From a virus, in the IMG/VR virus record IMGVR_UViG_3300009104_000048, positions 1 through 39,897 of that record: DNA of 39,897 nucleotides; one strand, given 5' to 3'. Shown here piece after piece: positions 1-34,400 of this stretch (positions are counted from its first letter, which is position 1; each line of letters begins with the position of its first letter). The translations under genes and the position numbers were made by a program. The notes beneath the pieces were generated by a model, which was not told the DNA's origin, did no database searches, and worked only from the letters and a program-made list of their open reading frames with translations.

Positions 1-1386
1 GGTAATGTAACAATAGATGGTTCTAATGGGTCTAATGGTATAGATTTATTAAGACCCACTGATAGTGCGATTATGCAAGCAATATCAGCACCAGATAGTA
101 GTACTTTAAAAATAGGTGGCGGCAATCAATCTTATGTTAAAATATATGCACATACTACAGAAGTTGTAGAATTTAATAATTCTGGTAATGCAACTTTTGT
201 AGGAAATATAGCAATAAGTGGTGGTAGTAAAAGCTTTAGTTTTACATCAGGTAGTGGTACTGTAAAAACCACTACAGGTAATAGTTTAATATTGCAAACT
301 AATAGTTCAGATGGTATTGTTATTGATGGGTCAACTCAAAATGTAACAATTGCAAATGATTTAGCTCTTACTGGTGGTGCTTTATCAATATCAGGTGATG
401 GTAGTAATGCTGTAACATTTACAGAAAGTAGTGCTGGAATTATGACTATAGCTACACCAGATGATTTTGTAGTTGATGCAGAAGGAGATATTGCTTTTGA
501 TGCAAATGGAGGAGATATAAGACTTAAAGATGGTGGAACACAATGGGGTTCATTATATACAGGAGGTGGTGGTACACATATGTATATAGAATCTGCAATA
601 TCAGATAAAGACATTATATTTAAAGGTAATGACGGTGGTTCAACAATTACAGCTCTTACTTTAGATATGTCTGTCGGTGGTTCAGCTTTCTTTAATCATG
701 ATATAGTAATGCCAGATAATGGTAAAGTTACGTTTGGTACAGGATCAGATCTTCAAATCTATCATGATGCTAGTAATAGTTATATAGTAGATACTGATGT
801 AGGTAGTTTAAAAATATGTGCTGCTAATTTCCATGTAATGAATGCTGGTGCTACTGAATACATGATGACTGGTACTCCAGATGAGGGTGTTATATTATAT
901 TATAATGGGTCAGTTAAATTTAAAACGACAGATGAGGGAATTCAAATTGCTGATTCAAATTTATATTTAAAAGATGGTTCTAATATAAGATTAGAGACTA
1001 CTATAACTACAAATAGCGACAGTTCAGGTACAATAATTAATTTTGGTGGTACTAGTGTAACAGCAGGATATTATTATGTTTTAAATAGTAGTAGTGGATG
1101 GGAAGATACTCAAGCTGACGCTGAAGAATTTTCTAAAGGATTAATAGCTGTCGCGCGTGCAACAGGTACTGCTAGTAGTGTAGGTATGTTGCTTGAAGGA
1201 ATATATAGAGATGCAAGTCATGGTTTTACAATTGGGGCGCCTTTGTTTTTAAGTGCAGATGATAATAATCTAGTAACTACTACTGCTCCATCAGGAAGCT
1301 CAGAAGTAGTTAGAGTAATGGGTTATGCTATAGATGCAAATCATATATATTTTAAACCAGATCCTACATGGGTAGTATTAGATTAA
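1..1386 (+). CDS. Phage tail-fibre-like surface protein, 5' end cut by the window
   Basis: The reading frame is open from base 1 (GNVTIDGSNG...) and the first in-frame ATG is only at 73, so the true start probably lies upstream; 461 codons are visible. The protein is rich in Gly, Ser, Thr, Asp and Asn with short beta-strand-like repeats. The segment LQIYHDASNSYIVD followed by GSLKIC is a motif often seen in fibre-like proteins of marine phages. The last ~110 residues (from FGGTSVTAGYYYVL to the end) read as a separate compact C-terminal domain. No catalytic motif is visible. A second surface-type gene follows after 10 bases. Likely role is host recognition or capsid/tail decoration; family assignment is by composition and recalled motifs only. 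Confidence 0.7.
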   Translation, partial: GNVTIDGSNGSNGIDLLRPTDSAIMQAISAPDSSTLKIGGGNQSYVKIYAHTTEVVEFNNSGNATFVGNIAISGGSKSFSFTSGSGTVKTTTGNSLILQTNSSDGIVIDGSTQNVTIANDLALTGGALSISGDGSNAVTFTESSAGIMTIATPDDFVVDAEGDIAFDANGGDIRLKDGGTQWGSLYTGGGGTHMYIESAISDKDIIFKGNDGGSTITALTLDMSVGGSAFFNHDIVMPDNGKVTFGTGSDLQIYHDASNSYIVDTDVGSLKICAANFHVMNAGATEYMMTGTPDEGVILYYNGSVKFKTTDEGIQIADSNLYLKDGSNIRLETTITTNSDSSGTIINFGGTSVTAGYYYVLNSSSGWEDTQADAEEFSKGLIAVARATGTASSVGMLLEGIYRDASHGFTIGAPLFLSADDNNLVTTTAPSGSSEVVRVMGYAIDANHIYFKPDPTWVVLD

Positions 1387-2523: not shown

Positions 2524-4077
2524 ATGTCAAATATGATAGTCAAAAATCTCAACTTTGGAGACAAAGCTAGAGATCAAGTATTTGAAGGAATTGAAAAACT
2601 CACTAAAGCTGTTAGCTCCACATTAGGAGCTAGCGGCAAATGTGTGATTTTAGAAGATTCTAATGGTAACCCTACTATAACAAAAGATGGTGTTACTGTA
2701 GCAGAAAATATAATATTAAGACACCCAGTAGAAAACATGGGATGTACTTTGTTAAAACATGCTGCTAAAAAAACCGTAGAAGAAGCTGGAGATGGAACAA
2801 CAACTGCAACCGTTTTAGCTCATGCTATTTTAACTGAAGCTTATAAAGTTCTTGATAAACATAATATAAGAAATATAAAAGAAGGTATTGATAGCGCGGT
2901 TAACAAAGTAATAAAATATTTAAATAAAATATCTATTCCTGTAAAAGATAAAATGTTAAATAATGTTGCTATTATATCTACTAATAATGATTTTAAATTA
3001 GGAAACCTAATAGCTGATTCTTTTAAATCTGTTGATACTACAGGAGTAGTAATGATGGAAATGTCTTTATCAGGAGAAACATTGGTAGAAGTAATAGATG
3101 GAGCTCAATATCCAAAAGGTTTAACTAGTCCTCATTTTATTACTAATAAAGAAAAGAAAACTGCTGAATTAGAAAATCCTTTAGTTTTATTATTAGATTC
3201 TGAAATAAATAGTATAAGACAAATACAAAGTATTTTAGAACATGTTATTAAAAAAAGAAAAGCTTTATTAATAATAGGAGATTTAAGTCAAGATGTTTTA
3301 GCTGCATTGGCTATGAATAAAACAAAAGGTAATATTAAAATAAATGTAATAGAAGCTCCTGTATTAGGTGTAAATAGAAAAGAAATATTTGATGATATAT
3401 CTTTATTAACTGGAGCAACTGTAATAAATGAAAACTTAGGAGATGACATGGATCTTATAAGTATAAATTATTTAGGAAGTTGTTTAAAAAGTGTAACTAA
3501 TAATACTGAAACTATTATACAAATAGGAGATACAAAAACAGAAACTCAAGTTATTATAGAAGATATTAAACAAGAATTAAAAACATGTAAAATTCCTGAT
3601 AAAATAATATCTTTAGAAAAAAGATTAGCTAGATTAGCAGCTAAAATTGCAGTAGTAAAAATTGGTGCTAATTCTGAAGTAGAATTAAAAGAAAAATTAG
3701 ATAGAGCAGAAGATGCTATTTGCGCAACCAAAGCCGCAGTTAAAGAAGGTATAGTTCCAGGGGGTGGAATAGCTTTATTAAATGCAGCTCTTAGTTTAAA
3801 AGAAGAAAATGAAGGAGAAAAAATATTAGCAAAAGCATTAATATCACCATATAAAACAATACTAGAAAATGCAGGTATTGATCCTATTTTACCTAAAAAA
3901 AATGGAATAGGAATAGATGTTACAAGTGGAAAACAAGTAGATATGGTTAAAAATGGTATTATCGATCCTTTATTAGTTACTAAAAGCGCTTTAAAAAACG
4001 CAGCATCAGTTGCTAAAACCATTTTATCTACAGATTGTGTAATTAATAATATAAGAGTTGATGAAAGCAATAGGTAG
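2524..4077 (+). CDS. groL: Phage-encoded GroEL-type chaperonin, 517 aa
   Basis: Clear group I chaperonin (Hsp60), an ATP-driven protein-folding cage. Equatorial nucleotide site: TITKDGVTVAENI (D55, matching E. coli D52) and GDGTTTATVLA (residues 89-99). Apical domain about 185-370. EDAICATKAAVKEG carries D397, matching catalytic D398, and is followed by GIVPGGGIALL. The C-terminal equatorial part includes DPLLVTKSALKNAASVA. Oddities: the near-invariant LGPKG loop is LGASG (34-38); the apical GYLSPYF is GLTSPHF; the Gly-Gly-Met tail is missing and the protein ends DESNR, making it about 30 aa shorter than E. coli GroEL. It overlaps groES and probably shares its transcript. The likely job is folding phage virion proteins. 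Catalytic aspartates are intact, so activity is expected. Confidence 0.97.
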   Translation: MSNMIVKNLNFGDKARDQVFEGIEKLTKAVSSTLGASGKCVILEDSNGNPTITKDGVTVAENIILRHPVENMGCTLLKHAAKKTVEEAGDGTTTATVLAHAILTEAYKVLDKHNIRNIKEGIDSAVNKVIKYLNKISIPVKDKMLNNVAIISTNNDFKLGNLIADSFKSVDTTGVVMMEMSLSGETLVEVIDGAQYPKGLTSPHFITNKEKKTAELENPLVLLLDSEINSIRQIQSILEHVIKKRKALLIIGDLSQDVLAALAMNKTKGNIKINVIEAPVLGVNRKEIFDDISLLTGATVINENLGDDMDLISINYLGSCLKSVTNNTETIIQIGDTKTETQVIIEDIKQELKTCKIPDKIISLEKRLARLAAKIAVVKIGANSEVELKEKLDRAEDAICATKAAVKEGIVPGGGIALLNAALSLKEENEGEKILAKALISPYKTILENAGIDPILPKKNGIGIDVTSGKQVDMVKNGIIDPLLVTKSALKNAASVAKTILSTDCVINNIRVDESNR

Positions 4078-4321
4078 AAATTTGATAATAGAAAAAATTA
4101 AACAAGGAACTACTAAAACTAAAGGTGGTTTATTGTTAGCAGAGAAACAAAAAGAAGATATAAGATATACAGAAGCTACTATTTTATCAGTAGGTGATGA
4201 AGTAAATGGTTTAAAGTCTAATGACACTATTTATTTTGATAGACATGCTGGGCATAAAATAGAAGTAAAAGATAAAACATATCATGTTATAAAATCACAA
4301 GATGTAGTCGTTGTTGTATGA
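4061..4321 (+). CDS. groS: Phage-encoded GroES-type co-chaperonin, 86 aa
   Basis: Lid partner of GroEL. I chose the ATG at 4061 (MKAIGRNLIIEK); an in-frame TTG at 4058 would add one residue but is less likely. The gene overlaps the end of groEL by 17 bases. The order of a GroES is visible: N-terminal strand GRNLIIEKI, mobile-loop region GTTKTKGGLLLAEK with GGLLL matching the GroEL-binding GGIVL, then ATILSVGDEV, NDTIYFDRHAGHKIEV and a C-terminal strand KSQDVVVVV. At 86 aa it is about ten residues shorter than E. coli GroES, mostly in the roof loop and the VGDxV region. Its last bases overlap the next start as ATGA. Expected to cap the phage GroEL and possibly the host one. Confidence 0.93.
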   Translation: MKAIGRNLIIEKIKQGTTKTKGGLLLAEKQKEDIRYTEATILSVGDEVNGLKSNDTIYFDRHAGHKIEVKDKTYHVIKSQDVVVVV

Positions 4322-10569: not shown

Positions 10570-10797
10570 ATGACTTCTGTTATTAGAAAAATAAGTATAG
10601 GCGCGGACTATAAAAATGAAGCCATGCATTATGCTGTAGGACAACAAGTTTATGGAGGACATGAAATATCTTATATATTATTTGAAGAAAAAGATAATTC
10701 CTACAATATTTATATAAAAAAAAACAATGAAGTATTACCATGGAAAAAATTTAATTCTAACATGGCAATCTCTATTGAATATGATTTAGAATACTAA
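10570..10797 (+). CDS. Small conserved phage protein, 75 aa
   Basis: It begins three bases after the previous stop. The sequence TSVIRKISIGADYKNEAMHY then VGQQVYGGHEISYILFEE and a C-terminus WKKFNSNMAISIEYDLEY has the alternating pattern of a small beta-sheet protein. I recall relatives with IRKIxIGxDY...MHYxVGQ and SIEYxL in marine phages, always unannotated. Its stop overlaps the next ATG as TAATG, so it is translationally coupled with the GroES-like gene. Confidence 0.7.
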   Translation: MTSVIRKISIGADYKNEAMHYAVGQQVYGGHEISYILFEEKDNSYNIYIKKNNEVLPWKKFNSNMAISIEYDLEY

Positions 10798-11402
10798 TGA
10801 GAAGTTTATATGATTTTATCGTAGAACCTTTAGGTGAAACATATAATAATAAAATTAAAATAAAAAACAAGGATTTAATTTTAAATTCAAACATAGAAAA
10901 TTTTAAATTTGTTAATAGACACGCTTTAATTAAAGCTATTCCTTTAGCATATCACACAGGTATACAAGTAGATGATATAGTAATTATTCATCAAAATGTA
11001 TTTAGAACTTTTTATAATACTAAAGGAATACAAAAAAAAAGTAGATCTTGGTTTAAAGATAATTTATATTTTTGTCAACCTGATCAAGTTTATTTATATA
11101 AAAGAAATAATATATGGCATTCATTTAATGATAGATGTTTTATAAAACCTATAAAAAATACACAATCTCTAACAAACAATAAAGAGACTAGTTTGGTAGG
11201 AATATTAAAATATGGAAATAGTTCATTAGAGGATAAAGAAATATATCCTGGAGACCTCGTAGGATATACTCCGTATGGGGAATGGGAATTTATTATAGAT
11301 AATGAACGTTTATATTGTATGAAATCAAATGATATTGTAATTAAATATGAATACCAAAAAGACAAAAAAGAATATAATCCAAGCTGGGCAAAAAGCAGTT
11401 GA
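10797..11402 (+). CDS. Putative double GroES-like protein, 201 aa
   Basis: Two halves each resemble a GroES barrel. Half one (to ~106): NRHALIKAIP, IQVDDIVIIHQNVFR, FCQPDQVYLYK. Half two (~113-187): CFIKPI, VGILKYGN, IYPGDLVGYTPYGEWEFIID, ERLYCMKSNDIVIKYEY, which follows the GroES order G-x-V-x-x-V-G, V-G-D-x-V, E-x-x-I, Y-x-I-x-x-x-D-I. Neither half has an obvious GGIVL mobile loop. I recall this gene type in front of terminases in marine phages, mostly unnamed. It could be a co-chaperonin variant for the phage GroEL or a structural protein using the same fold. The family link is inference by eye. Confidence 0.6.
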   Translation: MRSLYDFIVEPLGETYNNKIKIKNKDLILNSNIENFKFVNRHALIKAIPLAYHTGIQVDDIVIIHQNVFRTFYNTKGIQKKSRSWFKDNLYFCQPDQVYLYKRNNIWHSFNDRCFIKPIKNTQSLTNNKETSLVGILKYGNSSLEDKEIYPGDLVGYTPYGEWEFIIDNERLYCMKSNDIVIKYEYQKDKKEYNPSWAKSS

Positions 11403-11622
11403 AGAATTAATTAAAGTAGCTAAAGAACCTATTGTAGATTCAGAAGATGATATATCAGCAGATAGATTAAAGAACGCTGCTGCTACTAAAAAATTAGCTA
11501 TATTTGATGCTTTTGAAATTTTAACTAGAATTGAAGAAGAAGAAAATTTATTAAATAATAAACCTGTTGAAAAGAAAGAAGAAAAAACTTTTAAAGGTTT
11601 TGCAGAAGGGAGGTCTAAATAA
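11347..11622 (+). CDS. Candidate small terminase subunit, 91 aa
   Basis: The ATG at 11347 lies 56 bases inside the preceding gene in another frame; the stop overlaps the TerL start (TAATG). The protein is helical and charged: basic N-terminus NTKKTKKNIIQAGQKAVEEL, central helix DISADRLKNAAATKKLAIFD AFEILTRIEEEE, and tail KTFKGFAEGRSK. The position directly before terL, the small size and the basic helical N-terminus are what a DNA-recognising small terminase would show, but no helix-turn-helix is certain. Coupling with TerL by overlap supports a shared function. Confidence 0.6.
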   Translation: MNTKKTKKNIIQAGQKAVEELIKVAKEPIVDSEDDISADRLKNAAATKKLAIFDAFEILTRIEEEENLLNNKPVEKKEEKTFKGFAEGRSK

Positions 11623-13832
11623 TGTATCAGCAAACTTTATATAAAATCTTAAAAGATTATATAAAACCCCATATTATTAAAAGAAATAATAAAAATAAAA
11701 AATGGGAGTATGGATATAATAAAGAACATGATATTATTGTTATATCAAAAACAGGACAAATAGGAGAAATTTATGAAATTCAAAATTTAAAAATTGCATT
11801 ACCAAAAATAGATAATGTTTTTAAATTTAAAAAAAACAAATGGACTAAATTTGATTATCCTAAACAATTACAAAGAATTAAAACTGTATTTGATTGGAAA
11901 GAATATCCAGTAGATTTTAAAGAAAAATGGTTTGAATATATTGATGAAGAGTTTAAGAGAAGAGAAGAAGGATTTTGGTTTTATAATAAAAATGTTTCTA
12001 CTTATCTTACTGGTACTCATTATATGTACTTGCAGTGGAGTAAGATTGATGTTGGGGCACCAGATTTTAGAGAAGCCAATAGATTATTCTTTATATTCTG
12101 GGAAGCTTGTAAAGCAGACAAAAGATGTTACGGAATGTGTTACCTTAAAAACCGTAGATCAGGATTCTCTTTTATGGCTTCAGGAGAAATTGTAAATCTT
12201 GCTACAATATCCAGTGATTCAAGATATGGAATATTATCTAAAACTGGACCAGATGCTAAAAAAATGTTTACTGATAAGGTTGTACCTATCTCAGTTAACT
12301 ATCCTTTCTTTTTTAAACCGATTCAAGATGGTATGGATCGACCTAAAACAGAATTAGCTTATAGAGTTCCAGCTTCTAAATTTACTAGAAGAAAAATAGA
12401 ATTAGGAACTGCAGAAGCAGATTTACAAGGATTAGATACAACTATTGATTGGAAAAATACAGGGGATAATAGTTATGATGGTGAAAAATTAAAACTATTA
12501 GCCCATGACGAAAGTGGTAAATGGGAAAAACCAAACAATATATTAAATAATTGGAGAGTAACAAAAACAACTTTAAGACTTGGAAGTAGAATTATTGGTA
12601 AATGTATGATGGGAAGTACTTCTAATGCTTTAGACAAAGGTGGTGATAATTTTAAAAAACTATATGATGATTCAGACGTCACTCAAAGAAACGCCAATGG
12701 ACAGACTCGTTCAGGACTCTATTCTTTGTTCATTCCTATGGAGTGGAACTACGAAGGATACATTGATTCTTATGGATTACCTGTCTTCGAGACACCATCA
12801 AACGCTGTCAAAGGTCCGCGAAATGAAGATATTGAATTAGGAGTTATTGCTTATTGGCAAAACGAAGTAGATGGTTTAAAACAAGATCAAAATGGTTTAA
12901 ATGAATTTTATCGTCAATTTCCAAGAACAACTCAACACGCTTTTAGAGATGAATCTAAGTCTTCTTTATTTAATTTGGTAAAAATCTATGAACAAATAGA
13001 TTATAATGAAGATTCACAAAATAATGCATTAATAACTCAAGGTTCCTTTCAATGGGAACATGGAATAAAAGACACTAGAGTATTATTTGTACCTAATAAT
13101 TCGGGAAGATTTAAAATATCTTGGGCTCCTCCTTATTCTTTACAAAACAATGTAATAATTAAAAATGGAATAAGATATCCTGGCAATGAACATTGTGGGT
13201 GTTTTGGATGTGATCCTTATGATATTTCAGGAACAGTAGATATAAGAGGATCTAATGGCTCACTTCACGGACTTACAAAGTTTAGTATGGAAGATGTTCC
13301 ACCTAATCATTTCTTTTTAGAATATATAGCAAGACCTCAAACAGCTGAAATATTTTTTGAAGATGTTTTAATGGCCTGTGTATTTTATGGAATGCCTATT
13401 TTAATAGAAAATAATAAACCTAGACTTTTATATCATTTTAAAAGAAGAGGATATAGAGGATTTAGTATGAATAGACCAGATAAATTATATAATAAATTAT
13501 CGGTGACGGAAAGAGAAATTGGTGGAATACCAAATTCTAGTGAGGACGTAAAACAAGCTCACGCAGCAGCAATTGAATCTTATATTGAAACCTACGTTGG
13601 TAATTTAGGAAGTAGATATGGAGACATGTATCTTCAAACAACGTTAGAAGATTGGGCTAGATTTGATATTAATAATAGAACCAAACATGATGCTTCTATT
13701 AGTTCAGGTTTAGCTATAATGGGATGTAATAAAAATCTTTATAAACCCATATTTAAAAGAGAATTAGACCCAAAACCTTTAGGTTTTAAAAAATATAATA
13801 ATAAAGGATATATTTCAAAAATAATAGATTAA
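11622..13832 (+). CDS. terL: Terminase large subunit, 736 aa
   Basis: Motor ATPase and nuclease that packages DNA into the capsid. ATPase half: a deviant P-loop YLKNRRSGFSFMASGE (K176 to F184), where the usual Walker A lysine position is occupied by F182; Walker B LLAHDESG with D296 and E297. Nuclease half (RuvC-like): CDPYDISGT with D531, ILIENN with E596 and KHDASISS with D690. The order and length fit TerL of large podoviruses of Bacteroidota. The gene overlaps the candidate small subunit by one base and is followed directly by the portal gene. A GGGAGG lies upstream but inside the previous coding end (encoding GRSK), so its use as a ribosome site is uncertain. Confidence 0.9.
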   Translation: MYQQTLYKILKDYIKPHIIKRNNKNKKWEYGYNKEHDIIVISKTGQIGEIYEIQNLKIALPKIDNVFKFKKNKWTKFDYPKQLQRIKTVFDWKEYPVDFKEKWFEYIDEEFKRREEGFWFYNKNVSTYLTGTHYMYLQWSKIDVGAPDFREANRLFFIFWEACKADKRCYGMCYLKNRRSGFSFMASGEIVNLATISSDSRYGILSKTGPDAKKMFTDKVVPISVNYPFFFKPIQDGMDRPKTELAYRVPASKFTRRKIELGTAEADLQGLDTTIDWKNTGDNSYDGEKLKLLAHDESGKWEKPNNILNNWRVTKTTLRLGSRIIGKCMMGSTSNALDKGGDNFKKLYDDSDVTQRNANGQTRSGLYSLFIPMEWNYEGYIDSYGLPVFETPSNAVKGPRNEDIELGVIAYWQNEVDGLKQDQNGLNEFYRQFPRTTQHAFRDESKSSLFNLVKIYEQIDYNEDSQNNALITQGSFQWEHGIKDTRVLFVPNNSGRFKISWAPPYSLQNNVIIKNGIRYPGNEHCGCFGCDPYDISGTVDIRGSNGSLHGLTKFSMEDVPPNHFFLEYIARPQTAEIFFEDVLMACVFYGMPILIENNKPRLLYHFKRRGYRGFSMNRPDKLYNKLSVTEREIGGIPNSSEDVKQAHAAAIESYIETYVGNLGSRYGDMYLQTTLEDWARFDINNRTKHDASISSGLAIMGCNKNLYKPIFKRELDPKPLGFKKYNNKGYISKIID

Positions 13833-17496: not shown

Positions 17497-18939
17497 ATGA
17501 GTTTAACTCCACAATTTGGGTCAATAGTACCCTCACAAAAACAGGAGCTACTTAACAGTAATTATTTACAATGGACTGATTCCGCAGGAGATAATTTTGC
17601 AGATTTTGCACAACAATATCTTCCTGAAGTTTATGAACAAGAAGTAGAAAGATACGGTAATCGTACTCTATCTGGATTCTTGAGAATGGTTGGTGCAGAA
17701 ATGCCTATGACATCTGATCAAGTTATTTGGTCTGAACAAAATAGGTTACATGTTGCATATGATCCAGTCACTATTGGAAATGGTGCAGGTGTAAATACAG
17801 TTACAATTCCTGTAGCTGCTACTGTTAAAAATGTAGTTTCTCCTAAAAGCACTATAGTTCTTATGGACGCTAATGGTGTAGAAATGAAATGCTATGTATT
17901 AGCAAGTAACACTGCTACTGGTGTACTTAATGTATATCCTTATACAGCAGCAGATTTACAAAGCTTAGCGGCAACAGGTAAAATGTTTGTTTATGGTTCT
18001 GACGTTGAAAAAGGTCAGTCAGTAAGCAATGCTTCTGATACTGCAGGTGCTGTAACAGGTGATCAATATATAAGTGTTGATCCAGCTTTCCAACAATACT
18101 CTAACTCTCCAATTATAATTAGAAGCAAATATGTTGTTTCTGGTTCTGATACTGCTCAGATAGGATGGGTTGAAGTTGCTACTGAAGATGGAACTTCTGG
18201 ATACCTATGGTATCTAAAAGCTGAGTCTGAAACAAGACTTAGATTTGAAGACTATTTAGAAATGGCGATGGTTGAAGGCGAATTAAGTGAAAACGGTCCA
18301 GCTGCTTTAGTAGCATTGTCTAAAGGTACACAAGGTATGTTTGCTGCTATCTCTGATAGAGGTAATGTAAACGTTGGTTTTACCGCAGCTGCTGGCATTG
18401 ATTCATTTGATGCTATTCTTAAAAACTTAGATACTCAAGGTGCAATTGAAGAAAATATGCTTTTCTTACAAAGACAAACAGCATTAGACTTTGATGATAT
18501 GCTTTCGCAAATCTCAGGTGGTTATGCTGGTGGTACTGCATTCGGTTTATTTGAGAATTCAGAGGAAATGGCACTTAATTTAGGTTTTTCTGGCTTTAGA
18601 AGAGGTTCTTATGACTTCTATAAAACTGATTGGAAATATCTAAATGATGCGTCAACTAGAGGAGGTATGACAGGCATTAGTTCTATTGAAGGTGTATTAA
18701 TACCTGCTGGAACTTCTACTGTATATGATCAAATTCTAGGTACTAATATCAGGAGACCTTTCTTACATGTAAGATATAGAGCTTCTCAAGCTGATGATAG
18801 AAGAATGAAATCATGGCTAACAGGTTCTGTTGGTGGTGCTTACACTTCTACTCTTGATGCTATGGAAGTCAATTTCTTATCAGAAAGATGTCTTGTAACA
18901 CAAGGTGCTAACAACTTTGTAATATTCAAAGGTGTATAA
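17497..18939 (+). CDS. Major capsid protein, HK97-type, 480 aa
   Basis: Position after portal and scaffold, size of 480 aa, and balanced composition fit a HK97-fold capsid protein. N-terminal arm SQKQELLNSNYLQWTDSAGD; AEMPMTSDQVIWSEQNRLHV; inserted beta region about residues 90-180; long-helix part FEDYLEMAMVEGELSENGPA; C-terminal RRPFLHVRYRASQADDRRMK and SERCLVTQGANNFVIFKGV. Codon use is less extreme in AT than the neighbours, with more GGT and GCT, as expected for a highly made protein. A strong hairpin follows the stop. The family call rests on context and recalled similarity to capsid proteins of Bacteroidota podoviruses. Confidence 0.88.
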   Translation: MSLTPQFGSIVPSQKQELLNSNYLQWTDSAGDNFADFAQQYLPEVYEQEVERYGNRTLSGFLRMVGAEMPMTSDQVIWSEQNRLHVAYDPVTIGNGAGVNTVTIPVAATVKNVVSPKSTIVLMDANGVEMKCYVLASNTATGVLNVYPYTAADLQSLAATGKMFVYGSDVEKGQSVSNASDTAGAVTGDQYISVDPAFQQYSNSPIIIRSKYVVSGSDTAQIGWVEVATEDGTSGYLWYLKAESETRLRFEDYLEMAMVEGELSENGPAALVALSKGTQGMFAAISDRGNVNVGFTAAAGIDSFDAILKNLDTQGAIEENMLFLQRQTALDFDDMLSQISGGYAGGTAFGLFENSEEMALNLGFSGFRRGSYDFYKTDWKYLNDASTRGGMTGISSIEGVLIPAGTSTVYDQILGTNIRRPFLHVRYRASQADDRRMKSWLTGSVGGAYTSTLDAMEVNFLSERCLVTQGANNFVIFKGV

Positions 18940-22384: not shown

Positions 22385-25300
22385 ATGCCAGAAAATAAAA
22401 ATAGTTTCATTAAGTCTAAAATGAATAAAGACTTAGATGATAGACTGATTCCAAATAATGAATACAGAGACGCAAATAATATTGCAGTTTCTAGATCAGA
22501 AAACCAAGATGTTGGCGCAGTAGAAGCTATTTTAGGTAATGAATTAGTTTTTAGTAGTAGTGGAACTTTAAAAACTATTGGTACTTATGTAGATCCTACA
22601 AATGGATATATTTATTATTTTATTACTGATCATACATCATCTACTCAAGCTCCTTCTTCAGCTACATGTCAAGTATGTAGATGGTCTCCAAGTTCTGGAA
22701 CTTCAACTCCTACAGTTTTAGTGGAAGGTTATTTTCTTAATTTTTCTACACAATCTCCAGTATATGGAATTAATTTATTAGAAAATTTATTATTTTGGAC
22801 AGATAATAGAAATCAACCTAGAGTTATTAATGTTCAAACAGCTAGTCCAAGTGGTGCGGGAGTTACTCATTATACTACTGAACAAAGTATTTCAGTATGT
22901 AAATATTCTCCTTATAATGCACCTCAATTAATAGATTTACGAAGTGTTAGTGCAACTAAACCAAGCACGATGAGTGATGCTGCAGATATTCCTACTATAA
23001 GAATAGATGCATTAGATTGGGCTACTGTAAATTTAGACGTAACAAGATATAGAAATGGTGATTTAATAGAACAAGCAGTTACTTATGCAGATTGGGTAGC
23101 CGCAGATAATGCTGGTACAGGAGCTTGGTGTTATTATGATAATAACTTTGGTAATGGAGTTACTTATGGTAAACTATATAATAGACACGCAGTAAAAGAT
23201 TCTAGAAATTTAGCACCTTATGGGTTTGATTTAGCTACTGAAGATGATTTTGATGCTTTAATAGCTTATATTGCACCCAGTTTAGGAGTAGCTAGTATAA
23301 AATCAACATCTGATTGGACTGCTACTTCTAATATTGCTAATAATAGAACAGGATTTAACGCTTTACCTTCAGGTGAAAGAATAGCTACAAGTGCGGTAGC
23401 AGATTTTCAAAACATAAATACTCATGCAGAGTTTTGGATATCTGATGAACAAAAATATTTTCAAATATTAGATTCTAATGCTGCTCCTACAGTTCAAGCA
23501 GCTGGAAGTGATAAATCTGGAAGAGCAGTTAGGGTTATAAAAAACAATGCTTTTAAAGGATGGCAGGGTGATCCAGAGTTAATGAAAGATAAATTTATAA
23601 GATTTAGTTATAGATTTAAATATGAAGATGGAGAATATTCATTAATTGCTCCATTTACACAAGAATGTTTTATACCTCAGCAAGATGGTAAGTTTGTTAA
23701 TGAAGATGAAGATGATACCATGAGATCTACAATAGTAGAGTTTATGCAAAATAATATTAACAATGTTATATTAAACATAGAACTTCCTTCATTAGACATT
23801 ATTAATGATTATAAAGTACAAGAAATAGATATTATATATAAAGAATCTGATGCTTTAGCTTATAAAGTATTACAAAATATTCCTGTAGATACAGTATTTA
23901 TAAATAATTTAAATAATACTAATATATATCAATATACTTATCAATCAACTATTCCTTATAAAGTATTACCTACTGACGAAACAACTAGAGTGTATGATAA
24001 AGTACCTGTACGAGCTTTAGCCCAAGAAATAGCAGGTAATAGAGTAATGTATGGTAACTTTATACAAGGTTATAATGCACCTTTAGGATTAGATTACGCA
24101 GTAGAATTAAGAGATAAAAATAATCAAGAATATGAAGAATATCCTCAACATTCAGTAAAAGAAAATAGAAATTATCAAGTAGGTGTTATTTTAGCAGATA
24201 AATGGGGAAGACAAACAGATGTAATACTATCTTCTAAAGATAATGTTTTAGTAGCAGGAGGAGAACCAACTGAAGGTTCTAATTATTTTACAAATTATAG
24301 ACCAGTAGAAAATGCTGGTACGTTGTCTGGATGGCAAGGAGAACAATTAGCATTAAGATTTGATAGTGCAGTTCCATCTTCCGGTTTATATGCTACACCT
24401 AATAATTATACAATAGAAAAACCTTATTCTAATCCTTTTTCATCGTTTTTAAATTGGAGCACACAAGAATTAACTACTGTAGCAGCTCAAGCCGCTTATA
24501 CGTTTACTAATTTATCTTATTCAGATACTACTGTATTTACTTTATATTTAAATCAAGGTACTGGATGGGTATTAATTGACGCAAGTACATATGGTACAAC
24601 AGATAGCGGAGATGATGAGGTTGTGGTAACATTTACATCTGGTACTCCAGCTACAGCAGGTTGGAAACTTTTAGGTAAAAATTTATATAACACTACTCAA
24701 TATAGATATGAAATAAATTATCCTGGATTTGATGCAGATTTTGCTAATAATGTAATTCCTGATACTAAAGAAGTATTTGATGTAGGAAAATTTTTAAGAG
24801 GTAAGTATATAGATTATATAGAAATTAAATCTTTTGCTCAACAAGGTGTTACGGATAGATATCTTATTTACACTGATAAAGAAATTTCTAGTACTTATAT
24901 GTTTCAAGGAGATGGCACTCCTGCTAATCCTACTACTAGAACTGAACCTCTTACAGATCAAGATGTGACTAATGCAAGTTATAATTTAGATAATCAATTA
25001 GGTTTTTACTCTTATCGAGTTGTAATAAAACAAAAAGAACAAGAGTTTTACAATGTTTATGTGCCTGGTATTATAGATGGTTATCCTATTCAAGCCAATA
25101 CAACTGAAATAGGTAGCACTGCTTTTATGGTATTAACCCATGATAATATAAATAAAGTTCCTAGACAATTAAAAGATGTAAGTAATCAAGATAAACAATT
25201 TAATAGTGATTTATTGTGTTTTGGAAGAGTTACTAATAATGAAACAACTCCGGGTAATACTCAATATTCACCTTCAATTAATCCAGATAGCGTAGAACTT

Positions 25301-27139
25301 ATTGGAGGAATAAGAGATATATTTCCGGATGTAGAATATGATGGATCAGCTGGAGTACCTGCTAATACTGGTAAAATAAATAATAATGCTATCTTTGATG
25401 TTACACAAAAACCTTTTATAGCTAAACTTAATACACAAAAAAGTATTGGATTAATTCAAACATCTTATAATACCACCGCAGTTGCTGGTAGACCAGATTA
25501 TCCGGCTTATATGAGATTAAGTGCTTATGAAACTGCTCCTATAGTTTCTCAATTAGATTTATTTTATGAAACATCTACTAGTGGTTTAATATCAGATTTA
25601 AATTACGAAATTAATTCTTCTGGTACACAAATTACAGGGGTAACGTCTTTTACATGGTTATTTAATGAAGGAAAATGTGGAGGTTCTCAAATAACAACTA
25701 CGTTTTGGCCTACAACTCCCGAAGGAAATGATACTACTTCACTTGCAGAAATAACTGAAACATTAGTTCATGACTCTAATGATCAACCTGTTCAACCTAG
25801 TTTATCTTTATTTGATATTGTATCAGGTGGTAGTGGAAGTTTTTATTTAAAATTAAAAACAGGAGCTGAAAGAGCTTGTTTAGTAAACTTTGGATATTTA
25901 GAAAAATACCAAATAACAATAAAATTTACTCAAGCAGATGGAAGTGTATCTTATCAAACCATTACACGCACGTTATTAAATAGTCAACCAATAGTTGAAC
26001 TTGCACTAGCTCCACAACCAGAAATTGCTGATAAAACTATTTTAGATTTTACTGGCTATACTCCGCCAGGAGGATTAGATCCTGGACCTGGTAATGGACC
26101 CGGGGTTTTAAAAGGATGGAACGGAAGTTGTAATAGTTGTGAAAAAACTCAAGCATTAGAATGGTCTATTGAATCATTTAGATACCAAGATACTTTAGGA
26201 GCATGGGGTGATTATATAACAGGTCAAAATCCTAGTGGCACTCCTACCTCTACAGATATAGATTATTATATGCAAATAACAGAACAGTCTGCTCAAAATC
26301 AAGCTACATGTTCTGGAGGAAGTCCTACTAATTTTTATGGAGTTAAGGTAAATAGAAATTTATCAACTTATAATTCTCAATATGAAGCAACTCTTCAAGA
26401 ATTAGTAATGAAATTAAGTGATACAAATGGGACAGGAGCAAGTGATACTATTACAGTACAATGGACTCCAGAAGCTGATAGATTAACGGGGGTAGTTGCT
26501 AATTATTATAATAATAATCCTGCACCAACTGCACAAGAATGGTTAGCTCCTCCAACAGGAAGTCCAGGAATGTATCCAGGATGTGAAACAGCATCTTCAA
26601 CCCCTGTATTACCTACATGGGTTGGTGGAATAGCAAATTGGACTGGCAATCAAGTTTATATATATGTTAAAATTGGTGATCTCCATGATACAGGAAATAC
26701 AGCTATTTCAAACCAAACAGTTGTATGGAGTGGAGAAAATACACAAAATTCTAATGCTCCTGCTATTGGAGATGGTACAGCTGCTTTTTCTGGTCCTATT
26801 ACAATGAATTATAGTGGATCAGATACTACATGGCAACTAATAGGATCTTTACCAGCATTTACTCCTTCTAATCAACAAATAACTGATGGAGTAGTGCCGG
26901 GAGATAAAGGAACAGATTCTGCATCTCAATATTATGATTTTAAAGGATGTGCATGGATTAATAATAAAATAGAATGGACAAGTTTGAATACTTGTGATGG
27001 CGGGGCTGGTATAGCTATATATTACGATCTTGTTGGTGGAGCAGCACCAGTAAGCCCACAATTAATACAACCAGCAAGTGGTTCACCACCTTTTGTCACA
27101 AACTATTGGTACAAAACAAGTGGTTGGCCTGGAGCATAG
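22385..27139 (+). CDS. Long tail protein (muzzle/tail-stabilisation type), 1584 aa
   Basis: The N-terminus (KSKMNKDLDDRLIPNNEYRD then NNIAVSRSENQDVGAVEAIL) is the opening pattern I associate with long tail-nozzle proteins of Bacteroidota podoviruses. The following part reads IGTYVDPTNGYIYYFITD and YGINLLENLLFWTDNRNQPR, a beta-propeller-like body. More beta domains follow to ~1220. Then comes a Pro/Gly linker (PPGGLDPGPGNGPG, about 1225-1238) and a C-terminal ~340-residue region with CNSC (near 1247-1250) and further Cys and Trp residues that looks like added surface domains. The gene is followed after 32 bases by a gene that looks like the missing C-terminal part of this protein family. No enzyme motif seen. 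Confidence 0.72.
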   Translation: MPENKNSFIKSKMNKDLDDRLIPNNEYRDANNIAVSRSENQDVGAVEAILGNELVFSSSGTLKTIGTYVDPTNGYIYYFITDHTSSTQAPSSATCQVCRWSPSSGTSTPTVLVEGYFLNFSTQSPVYGINLLENLLFWTDNRNQPRVINVQTASPSGAGVTHYTTEQSISVCKYSPYNAPQLIDLRSVSATKPSTMSDAADIPTIRIDALDWATVNLDVTRYRNGDLIEQAVTYADWVAADNAGTGAWCYYDNNFGNGVTYGKLYNRHAVKDSRNLAPYGFDLATEDDFDALIAYIAPSLGVASIKSTSDWTATSNIANNRTGFNALPSGERIATSAVADFQNINTHAEFWISDEQKYFQILDSNAAPTVQAAGSDKSGRAVRVIKNNAFKGWQGDPELMKDKFIRFSYRFKYEDGEYSLIAPFTQECFIPQQDGKFVNEDEDDTMRSTIVEFMQNNINNVILNIELPSLDIINDYKVQEIDIIYKESDALAYKVLQNIPVDTVFINNLNNTNIYQYTYQSTIPYKVLPTDETTRVYDKVPVRALAQEIAGNRVMYGNFIQGYNAPLGLDYAVELRDKNNQEYEEYPQHSVKENRNYQVGVILADKWGRQTDVILSSKDNVLVAGGEPTEGSNYFTNYRPVENAGTLSGWQGEQLALRFDSAVPSSGLYATPNNYTIEKPYSNPFSSFLNWSTQELTTVAAQAAYTFTNLSYSDTTVFTLYLNQGTGWVLIDASTYGTTDSGDDEVVVTFTSGTPATAGWKLLGKNLYNTTQYRYEINYPGFDADFANNVIPDTKEVFDVGKFLRGKYIDYIEIKSFAQQGVTDRYLIYTDKEISSTYMFQGDGTPANPTTRTEPLTDQDVTNASYNLDNQLGFYSYRVVIKQKEQEFYNVYVPGIIDGYPIQANTTEIGSTAFMVLTHDNINKVPRQLKDVSNQDKQFNSDLLCFGRVTNNETTPGNTQYSPSINPDSVELIGGIRDIFPDVEYDGSAGVPANTGKINNNAIFDVTQKPFIAKLNTQKSIGLIQTSYNTTAVAGRPDYPAYMRLSAYETAPIVSQLDLFYETSTSGLISDLNYEINSSGTQITGVTSFTWLFNEGKCGGSQITTTFWPTTPEGNDTTSLAEITETLVHDSNDQPVQPSLSLFDIVSGGSGSFYLKLKTGAERACLVNFGYLEKYQITIKFTQADGSVSYQTITRTLLNSQPIVELALAPQPEIADKTILDFTGYTPPGGLDPGPGNGPGVLKGWNGSCNSCEKTQALEWSIESFRYQDTLGAWGDYITGQNPSGTPTSTDIDYYMQITEQSAQNQATCSGGSPTNFYGVKVNRNLSTYNSQYEATLQELVMKLSDTNGTGASDTITVQWTPEADRLTGVVANYYNNNPAPTAQEWLAPPTGSPGMYPGCETASSTPVLPTWVGGIANWTGNQVYIYVKIGDLHDTGNTAISNQTVVWSGENTQNSNAPAIGDGTAAFSGPITMNYSGSDTTWQLIGSLPAFTPSNQQITDGVVPGDKGTDSASQYYDFKGCAWINNKIEWTSLNTCDGGAGIAIYYDLVGGAAPVSPQLIQPASGSPPFVTNYWYKTSGWPGA

Positions 27140-29573: not shown

Positions 29574-29592
29574 AAAATAAATTATGGCAACA
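29570..29592 (+). promoter_or_regulatory. Initiation leader identical to 1383
   Basis: The 23 bases from the upstream stop region through ATGGCAACA are identical to 1383-1405. They carry the stop codon of the preceding gene, an A run and AAATT before ATG. This looks like a re-used translation start module. Confidence 0.5.
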
Positions 29593-31425
29593 AAATCACA
29601 ATCATCAAGTTACCCTTTACCAGGAGTTACATTACCTAATGTGAATTATGGATCTTATTCTTCTCCTCAAAGAGGAAAATCAATTACCCCTGGCGCTGCC
29701 ATGGTAGGTGTATTACAACAAGGTGATATATTAAGACAAAAACAAGAAGCTGCAAAAAAAGAAGAAGAACGTAGAGAAAAAATAGAACGACAAAGGATTA
29801 TTGAAAATATGCAGACAATTCAAACAAATGCAGATTTGTGGAATTTAGATCAAATGAGTAATCTACATAGTTTACCTAGATCTACAGCGATTGAAGATCA
29901 ATTAAGAGCTACGTTAGAAAAAAGATTAAACATAGCTACTCAAGCTAATGTGTATTTAAAAACACAGTTTGGCGATAAAGAAAAAAGAGCTAGTGCTCAA
30001 AAAGCTATTTCAGATTATTATGATTTATTAACTTTAACTAAAGAAACTATTACTAATTTTGGAGCTTTAGGAACTTATTGGAAAGAAAAAGCACCCACTA
30101 TTGGATCTCAAATTACAATAATTGGTAATGATGAAAATGAAATTGCTAATAATCAATATTTAGTTAATGCTTTAGGAGGAGTATATGATGATGCTAAGTT
30201 TGAAATGGTTTTTGATGAAAAGAATAATGATATAATGATAAAAGTATCAGGTAACGAACACATGTTAGATGATAACGGTAATATGGTTTTAGGAGCTCCT
30301 AGAGAAAAAATTATTAGTGCAAGAGCTTGGAATGCAAAAGTAGCTGCTGGAGATCAAGATTTTCAATTTGTCTCCAGTGTTCCACAAATAGTCAATGAAA
30401 CTCTTGACATGTTAAAAACAAAAGAACAAAGTCCAAATCAAGATGGTATAGGGGTATTAAATGACAAAAATAATATTGCTAAAAGATATTGGGAAGAAGA
30501 TATTGTAATGCAAGGAACTATTCCAACTTCAGCTGGAGGAACAATGAGAACTACTAGTATAAAAAGAAAATTAAATTTAGAATTATTAAAAAATGATATG
30601 TTAGGGGTTTTAAGACAAAAAGTTAATGGAGTTGTAGGAACAGGACCTCAACAAACCGCAAATTTTTGGAATATAGATTTACAAAAATTAAATGAAGGTT
30701 TTGAAAATTCTTATCAAAAACTTTCACCTGATAAAGAATTAATGGTAGATGAATTATTTGATAAAGTAGTAGAAAGTTTAACTAGTTTTGATGGAATAAC
30801 AACTGATGCTGATGGAAATATATATCATCAAACAGACGACAATATAAGTGCTTGGCCTAAAGATACTACAGAAAGACCATTAGATTACAGAGTAGAATAC
30901 ATTTCAGATATAGTTGATCCAAAGAATAGAAACATAACAAACATGCAATCTGTTGACCAAACCTTAGAGAAGTTAGGTAGTAAAGTAAATATAATGGATA
31001 GAGAAGGTGCATATGATGTTTGGTTGAATAACCTTCATCCAGATTGGGATACAGGAAGTATCAAAAAGACTAATAAAGAAGTTTATGAAGAGAAAAAAGA
31101 GGATACAAGAACTATATTTAACGAAGAAAACCCAGGTGATGCTGATACACTTTACAAAGTTGAAAGTGGTACTATAGAACCTTTAAAAGGTTATAATATA
31201 GATAGTGCAGTAGAAAGATTAAATTTTATTTTAGATAATATAACTGCAAGTGAAAGAAAGAAAATGGAGAATTTAACTAACTTAAGAGCATTAGCTTGGG
31301 CTTCTGATTGGTATACTAATAACAAGCAAATAAAAGGTGTTGATCCAGAAACACAAGAAGAATGGAAAAAAAGAATGAAAGCAGCTTATAAAAAAGCACA
31401 TAAGAAAAATTTCCCAGCAAAGTAG
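29584..31425 (+). CDS. Putative internal/cargo virion protein, 613 aa
   Basis: The N-terminal ~45 residues are Ser/Pro/Gly-rich. A strongly charged coiled coil follows (KQEAAKKEEERREKIERQRI, about 55-75). The rest is soluble and helical, with RASAQKAISDYYDLLTLTKE, VYDDAKFEMVFDEKNNDIMI, and a Lys-rich end EWKKRMKAAYKKAHKKNFPA. No signal peptide or enzyme motif is visible. Its place between the small ejection-type protein and the giant protein suggests that it is also carried in the capsid or tail and delivered with the DNA. Family not recognised further. Confidence 0.65.
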   Translation: MATKSQSSSYPLPGVTLPNVNYGSYSSPQRGKSITPGAAMVGVLQQGDILRQKQEAAKKEEERREKIERQRIIENMQTIQTNADLWNLDQMSNLHSLPRSTAIEDQLRATLEKRLNIATQANVYLKTQFGDKEKRASAQKAISDYYDLLTLTKETITNFGALGTYWKEKAPTIGSQITIIGNDENEIANNQYLVNALGGVYDDAKFEMVFDEKNNDIMIKVSGNEHMLDDNGNMVLGAPREKIISARAWNAKVAAGDQDFQFVSSVPQIVNETLDMLKTKEQSPNQDGIGVLNDKNNIAKRYWEEDIVMQGTIPTSAGGTMRTTSIKRKLNLELLKNDMLGVLRQKVNGVVGTGPQQTANFWNIDLQKLNEGFENSYQKLSPDKELMVDELFDKVVESLTSFDGITTDADGNIYHQTDDNISAWPKDTTERPLDYRVEYISDIVDPKNRNITNMQSVDQTLEKLGSKVNIMDREGAYDVWLNNLHPDWDTGSIKKTNKEVYEEKKEDTRTIFNEENPGDADTLYKVESGTIEPLKGYNIDSAVERLNFILDNITASERKKMENLTNLRALAWASDWYTNNKQIKGVDPETQEEWKKRMKAAYKKAHKKNFPAK

Positions 31426-31435
31426 ATTAAATTTT

Positions 31436-34400
31436 ATGGAAGAAGAATTGTTTATATATCAATTACCTACGGGTGATAGAGTTAATCTTACCAATACTAC
31501 AGATGTATCGAGAATGCTTTGGTTATCTTTTAATAGTGATGCTAAAAGAGTAGAACCAAATGAAGAAGAAATTACTTTAGATACTAGTATATTTGGTATA
31601 CCTGGAGGGATAAAACCTACTCCTGCTCCAGATCATTATCCTGGTATTGGTCCTCAACCATATGATCAATTTGATTTAAATACCATGCTAGAACAACTTA
31701 CTTCTAGTAAAATCAAACAATATGATCAAGAAACTCCAGCTGATATAACCATGGTAGATGCTATTTTTGGAGCGTCTCCACAAGATACAGAATTTGCTAA
31801 AATAACAAGCATCACTGATGATCTTAATAATAAAGAATTAAGATCAGCTATTATTAATGCTGCTTTAAATCCTAAAGTGATTAAAGAAGATTATACCCAA
31901 ACAGGGGTTGAAGATGAAATAATATATGAAGGATTAGGATTGGATCATAAAGATGAGATGTATTCTCAACAAGACGTTGCAGGTTTTATGCGACAACCTA
32001 GTATAAAAAAAGCATTAGATGCAGGACTAATAACAGAAAAAGATTTAGCACTTGGCATGTATCCAGGTTATACAGCTTGGTTAGAAACAATGGGTAATCA
32101 AGTAAGCAATGAACCTTCTGGAATAAAATTACCTGATGGAAGAGAACTTACTACCAGAGAAGTATTTAAAATTATGTGGCAAAATGATATGCCATTTAAC
32201 ACAGACGTTGAAAGAGTAAAAAGAGAAGGAAGAAGAAAAGTAGATAGATTTGTTTTAAAAACACCAAAACAAATAGAATCAGTTATAGATGCAGAAAAAT
32301 TAAATCAACCTTATATATTTGAAGAATTTGCGGTAGATGATGAGTTTGTTGATAATATGTTTAATATAGAAGCTTTAAGTAGAGATAAAGATTTTAATAT
32401 AAAAGATTTTAATGGATTTTTAAACCAAAGAGGACATATAGAAGATATTCAAAACGCTATTACTAAATTAGAAGGTTATAATCCTCTAAAAAAACAAAAA
32501 GGATTTGAATTATTAAAACTTCATTATTTAAATCTTTATTTAAACGAACAATTTACTAGAGATTTAAAACAACAAAAACTACAATGGGAAATTAATAACC
32601 CTACGAAAGATGCTGATACTGAAGGAATACAATTTTATTTATCTGAAGGAAATATAAATCCTACAATGATTAAAGATTGGATGAGAACTGAAACTCCTTA
32701 TGTATATGATCAATTAGAAAAAAATCAATTAAAATTAGAAACTGAATATCAAAAACTTTTAAGCACTAAAGGTAATGTTGCTACAGGAGAATTTTTAGCT
32801 AAAAATGCTGGAAATTTTTGGATAGGATTTTGGAATGATGCTGTAATTCCTTTTGCTACTTTTACTATGGATGTATTACCTGGAGAAGGATCAGATAATG
32901 TAGCAGAAAAATGGAGAACAAATGATTTAATTAGAGGATTAGAAAGAGGAGATCAAATAAGATACGGATATAAAAGAGGTAAAATCTTACAATTTCCAGA
33001 ATATGGAAATGTAGAATATTTAGTCACTGACGATAATAGAATCTTTGATATTACAAATAAAATAGAAGCTTCAGGTTTCTTAAATGAAAAACAACAAAAA
33101 CATATTATTGAAAAAACTAAAAAAGAAGGAAAAGATGGAGGATCAAGTTCTTCTACTGGTTTAGCTTTTGAATTTTCTAGAGTATTTGGAGATTTATTTT
33201 TTCAAGTTGCATTAACTAGAGGAATAGGTAAACTTAAATCTACAGTAGGAGGATATACTAAAGGAATGGGAATTTTAGGAAAAACTAATAAGTTTTTAAA
33301 ATCATTACCTGTTAAAAGTATAGTTGCAGATGCTATTATTGCTCAATCTACTATAGGTTTTGTAAGAGGATATGAAGACACTTTGTTAGCTGCTAGAGAA
33401 GCAGGAATAAATGAACAAGATGCTAGAGAATTAGCATCTAATGCATCTTTTCAAACTGGTGCATGGTATGCTTTAACTGCCCCAATAAGCCCTCAAACTA
33501 AAGCTACTAATTTATTATTTGGTAAAAGTACAAAACAAACTCTTGACACAGCTGTTGATATATTTAGAAAAAAAGGTTGGCAAGGATGGAATCAATTTTT
33601 TATAAATCAAGGAACAAAATTTACAACTAAAGCAGGTTTAAGAGAAACTGGAAAAGGAATTGTAAGAACAGCAGATTTAATGTTAAGAGAAGGTGGAAAA
33701 GAACTTTTTCAAGAAAACATACAACAATGGGGAGAAACAGAATCAATAGGGGTTTCAACTAATATTAGAGCTGGAGAACAAATCGTTAGAGAAGATTATA
33801 ATTTAGAAGATTTTATTCAAACATCTAAATTATCATTTTTAGCTGGTATGGCTATGCCTGGTGCTGGAATGGCTTTAAATTCTACTAGAAACAGATATAG
33901 ACAGTTTATGGGATTAGATAATGTAGATCGTTTTAATGCATTAGCTTATATGGCTTATAATCAAGATGCGTTAAAAACTTTATTAGCTAAACAAGTAGAA
34001 GATAATGTATATGAACAAGAAGAAGTAGATAATTTATTACAAGAAGTAGAACTTTATAAAAACGTTATTAATCATGTTCCTACTAGTATGTCGGCTAAAG
34101 GAGCTAAAACTATTTTAGAGGATATAAGCGAATTAAATGATTTAGAAAATCAAAAGAAAAATGCTCCTAAAGGTTTTGCTGGTTTTGATCAAAGAATTCA
34201 AGAATTAAAAGATAGAATAAATAATACATATTATGATGAAATAACATCAGCTCAAAGATCAGGTATTATAGCGGCTGCAAAAGCTGGAGTAGCAGGAAAT
34301 ACTGTATTTGAAGCTTTTGAAAACGAACAAGATGCTTTAGATTATCTTAAAAAAGTAGTTCCTAGAAATAGAAGAACTAAAAAAATGAACGATGAGCAAT

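Follow-up and report, generated by a model that had tools for sequence, protein, structure and literature searches.

The window, by which we mean the whole 39,897-nucleotide stretch analysed here (positions 1 to 39,897 of IMG/VR virus record IMGVR_UViG_3300009104_000048), carries a gene for a chaperonin, an overlapping gene for a single-domain co-chaperonin and, beside the terminase gene, a gene for a predicted two-domain co-chaperonin. The features are as follows.

2524-4077, plus strand: groEL, encoding a group I chaperonin of 517 aa (Pfam, PHROG, alignment to E. coli GroEL, AlphaFold2, Foldseek)
2623-2637, plus strand: LGASG nucleotide loop of GroEL, aa 34-38, equivalent to E. coli LGPKG 31-35 (alignment)
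3118-3138, plus strand: GLTSPHF apical segment of GroEL, aa 199-205, equivalent to E. coli GYLSPYF 198-204 (alignment)
3871-3912, plus strand: shortened inter-ring contact loop of GroEL, aa 450-463, with the equivalents of S463 and V464 deleted (alignment)
4061-4321, plus strand: cpn10 (groES), encoding a single-domain co-chaperonin of 86 aa, start ATG at 4061 (Pfam Cpn10, E = 5e-14)
4100-4156, plus strand: GroEL-binding mobile loop of the small Cpn10, with GGLLL (alignment)
10797-11402, plus strand: gene for the putative tandem co-chaperonin of 201 aa, phrog_13932 (PHROG, AlphaFold2, Foldseek, profiles)
10797-11114, plus strand: tandem protein domain 1, aa 1-106, taken as Cpn10-like from the model and not from sequence profiles (AlphaFold2, Foldseek, loop)
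10830-10922, plus strand: predicted mobile-loop region of domain 1, aa 12-42, with LIL at aa 27-29, bases 10875-10883 (model, alignment)
11115-11366, plus strand: domain 2 of the tandem protein, aa 107-190, Cpn10 with no mobile loop (profile, probability 96%)
11622-13832, plus strand: terminase large subunit, constantly next downstream of the tandem gene (PHROG, loci)

The groEL ORF is translated without an internal stop. It matched Pfam Cpn60 over positions 1-488 of the 490 in the profile (201 bits, E = 3e-59; curated cut-off, 34.3 bits) and phrog_5725, chaperonin groEL, with E = 8.5e-136. Structure modelling, which had been suggested as a check in a preliminary description of this DNA, yielded an AlphaFold2 model (mean pLDDT 81) resembling GroEL structures over its full length (Foldseek, E = 1e-47). 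The product is a full-length group I chaperonin. When the protein was aligned with E. coli GroEL, the residues that had been read from the sequence were borne out: D55 and D397 (E. coli D52 and D398) and GDGTTTATVLA are intact, LGPKG is replaced by LGASG (P33A, K34S) and GYLSPYF by GLTSPHF (Y199L, Y203H), and the GGM tail is absent. The gene had been placed inside the virion gene block, which is only roughly right: groEL and the terminase-portal-capsid block downstream of it are about 7.5 kb apart, and the neighbours of groEL are a tail-fibre-like ORF and small genes without known function. The middle part of the first ORF in the window (73-1386) matched families of tail fibre and virion proteins, and the record starts inside this ORF or just before it. 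At the other end, a 2,633-aa ORF (31436-39337) and the 613-aa ORF that precedes it, both within 29584-39337, had no PHROG match.

The small cpn10 gene overlaps the 3' end of groEL by 17 bases, and its product is a Cpn10 domain with a loop containing GG and a hydrophobic tripeptide. A GroES-type loop was found in 102 of 104 phage small Cpn10s. The order groEL then cpn10, which was seen at 136 of 136 loci with an overlap in most, is in the window the reverse of the bacterial groES-groEL operon, and cpn10 is probably translationally coupled to groEL. The ORF directly upstream of groEL (2208-2498) was considered as a GroES and rejected; it has no family match, and the true Cpn10 is downstream. The small Cpn10 also matched phrog_931, 'head morphogenesis', weakly (E = 0.0019), a hint toward capsid folding.

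The ORF at 10797-11402 matched phrog_13932, 'co-chaperonin GroES' (E = 5e-19). Its AlphaFold2 model (pLDDT 92.8, pTM 0.85) has an identical strand order in both halves. In a Foldseek search, the best PDB match of this model was 7ekq_R (207 columns, E = 1.9e-5), followed by GroES chains; the relative placement of the two domains agrees only loosely with 7ekq_R (TM 0.53, rmsd 7.0). We take 7EKQ to be the Chlamydomonas chloroplast ClpP complex. In that complex, CPN11, CPN20 and CPN23 form a heterotetramer (PMC8889267); judging from that report and its length (194 aa), chain R would be a two-domain member. AlphaFold2 and Foldseek thus read the 201-aa protein as two Cpn10 domains in tandem.

Profile comparison of domain 1 with Cpn10 gave a probability of 22%, and profiles of cellular Cpn10, phage Cpn10 and domain 2 yielded no significant match to domain 1; its assignment therefore rests on the predicted fold, the strand order and the loop motif. 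Solved structures searched by sequence with the tandem profile likewise gave nothing significant. Across 156 non-redundant sequences, the domain-1 loop has the consensus GG-x-E-LIL-NTS, which resembles that of GroES, and its tripeptide is hydrophobic in 99, 97 and 77% at the three positions. No mobile loop was present in domain 2 in the alignment, and only domain 1 keeps the GroEL-binding loop. Hydrophobic GroEL-binding loops thus appear intact in the small lid and, as modelled, in domain 1 of the tandem protein. Domain 1 also contains a near-invariant HHNxFR...G (aa 65-77), in a stretch that is longer than in GroES.

Phage GroEL had been described as rare, a view that the databases contradict. 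Scanning IMG/VR with the window GroEL returned at least 141 related stretches (63-94% identity in the best 80 of the 141), and GroEL matches occur in 287 phage records, a count that includes a few mislabelled bacterial contigs. The best phage-database match, Acinetobacter phage MD-2021a (CAKLQH020000021.1), was discarded as a bacterial contig and not a phage: its neighbours are chromosomal (dgkA, glpQ, groSL), and its GroEL groups among those of Acinetobacter in a tree. This record inflates counts of phage GroELs.

In a tree of 55 rows, the window GroEL belongs to a clade of 17 rows (support 100/100), which together with the clade of elemo and ctfjg026 forms one all-phage side of 26 rows (100/100). 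The flavobacterial host GroELs nest inside Bacteroidota. Grouping of the window clade with flavobacterial GroELs, the outcome against which a comparison of host and phage GroELs had been proposed, was rejected (p-AU = 0.00026). Bacterial GroELs are about 41-43% identical to the window GroEL, the closest among the matches listed at about 43%. Terminase relatives are found in phages that infect Flavobacterium, Cellulophaga, Tenacibaculum and Maribacter; the host of the window phage is therefore probably a flavobacterium.

To place the residue changes, we counted them in 70 rows of the wider phage group, 12 other phage GroELs and 83 cellular GroELs. In the phage group, A replaces P33 in 51 rows and S replaces K34 in 48; L replaces Y199 in 41 and H replaces Y203 in 37. 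The GGM tail is present in 77 of the 83 cellular GroELs, and in none of the phage group or of the 12 other phage GroELs. LGASG, GLTSPHF and the loss of GGM are traits of a large phage clade and not peculiar to the window GroEL. D52, D87, T89, D398 and D495 are present in all 70 rows, with T90 and T91 altered in three rows altogether. The retained ATPase residues and the all-phage clade support the earlier proposal that this GroEL is catalytically intact and phage-specific. For groEL, small cpn10 and the tandem gene, dN/dS is about 0.1-0.2; all three are under purifying selection. A host gene that had decayed or was passively carried could account for the divergence from bacterial GroELs and the lost tail, but we give this explanation almost no weight in view of the low dN/dS, the catalytic residues universal in the group, the all-phage clade and the conserved operon.

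Other changes, overlooked in the preliminary description, are more telling than LGASG and GLTSPHF. Q or E replaces E. coli L234 in 68 of the 70 phage-group rows, A replaces V263 in 54 and M replaces V264 in 51; all three positions lie in the groove to which clients and the loop of the lid bind. At the inter-ring contacts, the window GroEL lacks counterparts of E. coli E434, S463 and V464 and carries A109D, R452K and E461D; 54 of the 70 phage-group rows have lost E434, and 50 have lost V464. The classical single-ring GroEL mutant SR1 carries changes at R452, E461, S463 and V464. Because inter-ring contacts are altered, at positions that include those changed in SR1, we can fairly infer, with less certainty, that this chaperonin assembles as a single ring or a weak double ring.

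The three genes recur together. All 30 of the longest relatives, which had been picked for having groEL, carry the small Cpn10 as well as the tandem gene. When records were picked solely for the tandem gene (n = 26), 21 had GroEL and the identical 21 had the small Cpn10; the remaining five, which are linear and may be fragments, had neither. All three genes are found in Flavobacterium phage elemo, Maribacter phage Panino, Cellulophaga phages phi40:1/Calle and the complete genome ctfjg026, and the set is therefore present in four independent named phage lineages. The Panino small Cpn10, annotated as hypothetical, was recognised by profile, and gp089 of Cellulophaga phage phi40:1 (KC821612.1, positions 343-927 of the piece of that record analysed), also annotated as hypothetical, is homologous to the tandem co-chaperonin. 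Relatives of the tandem protein are already labelled GroES in public annotation, as is the phi38:1 homologue in RefSeq. Pairwise distances calculated for GroEL, the two lids and terminase are correlated with one another (r = 0.79-0.89), showing that GroEL and the two lids have been inherited together with terminase. A phage GroEL by itself is ordinary; in the literature searched, which comprised open-licence papers only, we found no description of a phage tandem Cpn10 or of a two-lid set.

Taken together, the findings are best explained by a self-contained chaperonin of the phage that serves virion proteins and has two types of lid, and we put the probability of this reading at roughly 70%. 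The phage would encode a complete group I system that replaces or supplements that of the host. The GroEL barrel, with its pocket intact by alignment, would hydrolyse ATP and capture phage proteins in an apical groove rebuilt by L234Q, V263A, V264M, Y199L and Y203H. One lid would be the single-domain Cpn10 from the overlapping gene, and the other the two-domain protein whose gene lies beside terminase; both would cap the phage GroEL, instead of or alongside the host lid. The chaperonin may fold abundant virion proteins such as capsid or tail proteins, and specialisation of this GroEL for phage clients, as proposed earlier, is plausible. A 480-aa virion protein (17497-18939, phrog_13704) and the 1,584-aa virion protein (22385-27139) are candidate clients only. 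The latter matched Fib_succ_major (PF09603, E = 2.8e-25), which is unexpected in a phage structural protein.

The role of the tandem protein admits other readings. Terminase is present at 292 of 292 tandem-gene loci, usually about 200 bases downstream. This constant neighbour, the extra near-invariant motif in domain 1 and the loopless domain 2 would all suit a packaging or virion protein made of Cpn10-like barrels, kept with terminase and serving as no lid. We consider this quite improbable, given that it is hard to see what a conserved hydrophobic tripeptide in a GroES-like loop would be for, apart from binding GroEL, and that PHROGs and RefSeq both class the protein as a co-chaperonin.

If the tandem protein is a lid, as we favour, the two lids might serve at different times. 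Phage T4 gp31 replaces GroES, and in a similar manner the small Cpn10 could act early and the tandem protein late, fitting the cage with another dome for its work on capsid or tail proteins. At all loci tested, terminase follows the tandem gene, which belongs to the late packaging block, whereas groEL-cpn10 adjoins DNA-replication genes in phi40:1 and Calle_3, and in elemo groEL-cpn10 and the tandem gene are on opposite strands. In the window, however, the two units share a strand and are separated by about 6.5 kb. Such a switch is a possibility that we hold tentatively.

Alternatively, three tandem subunits and one single-domain subunit might assemble into one seven-domain lid, in the style of chloroplast Cpn20/Cpn23 with Cpn11, which would reconcile two-domain subunits with a ring of seven-fold symmetry. 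The two co-chaperonins of the phage are a pair of exactly the chloroplast type, the small Cpn10 and tandem genes co-occur, and the best structural match is the two-domain-length chain of 7EKQ. The Chlamydomonas heterotetramer of CPN11, CPN20 and CPN23 (PMC8889267) and the functional hetero-oligomers of green-algal Cpn10 and Cpn20, with seven GroES-like domains (PMC5780408), are precedents. Nevertheless, domain 2 lacks a mobile loop, which would leave such a lid with four of a possible seven loops; the two genes belong to separate modules, and in elemo to opposite strands, which is awkward for a fixed stoichiometry; and the modelled domains fit 7ekq_R only loosely. We regard a mixed lid as less likely than not. 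An unlikely extension is that flavobacterial phages independently evolved a chloroplast-style mixed lid of seven domains, some loop-bearing and some loopless, on a single-ring-capable GroEL with weak contacts.

Relatives of the window phage run to about 60-75 kb. That a compact phage has kept a barrel and two structurally different lids across deep divergence suggests a separate job for each lid, and the pairing of an ordinary with a tandem lid is otherwise best known from plant chloroplasts. Cultured hosts exist for Cellulophaga phages phi38:1 and phi40:1, Flavobacterium phage elemo and Maribacter phage Panino, making the system directly testable: whether and why a two-domain lid fits a seven-fold barrel, a symmetry question already debated for chloroplast Cpn20, and which virion protein requires such a lid.

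Among known systems, the closest in composition are elemo (Elemovirus), Panino and Cellulophaga phages phi38:1/phi40:1, which like the window phage have GroEL, a single-domain Cpn10 and a co-chaperonin of 180-200 aa encoded next to terminase. Their GroELs are only about 36-38% identical to the window GroEL, and in phi40:1 cpn10 precedes groEL, unlike in the window. Marine and colleagues reportedly described virioplankton chaperonins, including phage GroELs from plankton, in 2017 (ISME J 11:2479). A phage-chaperonin review that cites their work states that some phages encode both GroEL and GroES.

Jumbo phages EL, OBP and AR9 likewise encode group I-like chaperonins, some of them single-ring, and these have been described as working without a co-chaperonin; the EL chaperonin reportedly did not interact with E. 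coli GroES. The window GroEL is about 27% identical to that of EL over part of its length. The likeness to such lidless chaperonins that had been drawn earlier fails, as the window phage encodes two co-chaperonins with hydrophobic loop tripeptides. T4 gp31, like the proposed lids of the window phage, is a phage lid of Cpn10 fold, and the tandem model matched it weakly (1g31_A, E = 0.24); unlike the tandem protein, gp31 is single-domain and has host GroEL as its partner.

Chloroplast and apicoplast Cpn20 and Cpn23 resemble the modelled tandem protein in having two Cpn10 domains head to tail, and chloroplasts, like the window phage, have a single-domain Cpn10 alongside the tandem one. Compared with PDB sequences, the tandem protein gave no significant match to chloroplast or apicoplast Cpn20/Cpn23. 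Chloroplast Cpn20 has loops in both domains, whereas the tandem protein has one in domain 1 only. It thus misses the Cpn20 feature of a loop per domain and, as modelled, would be a tandem lid in outline.
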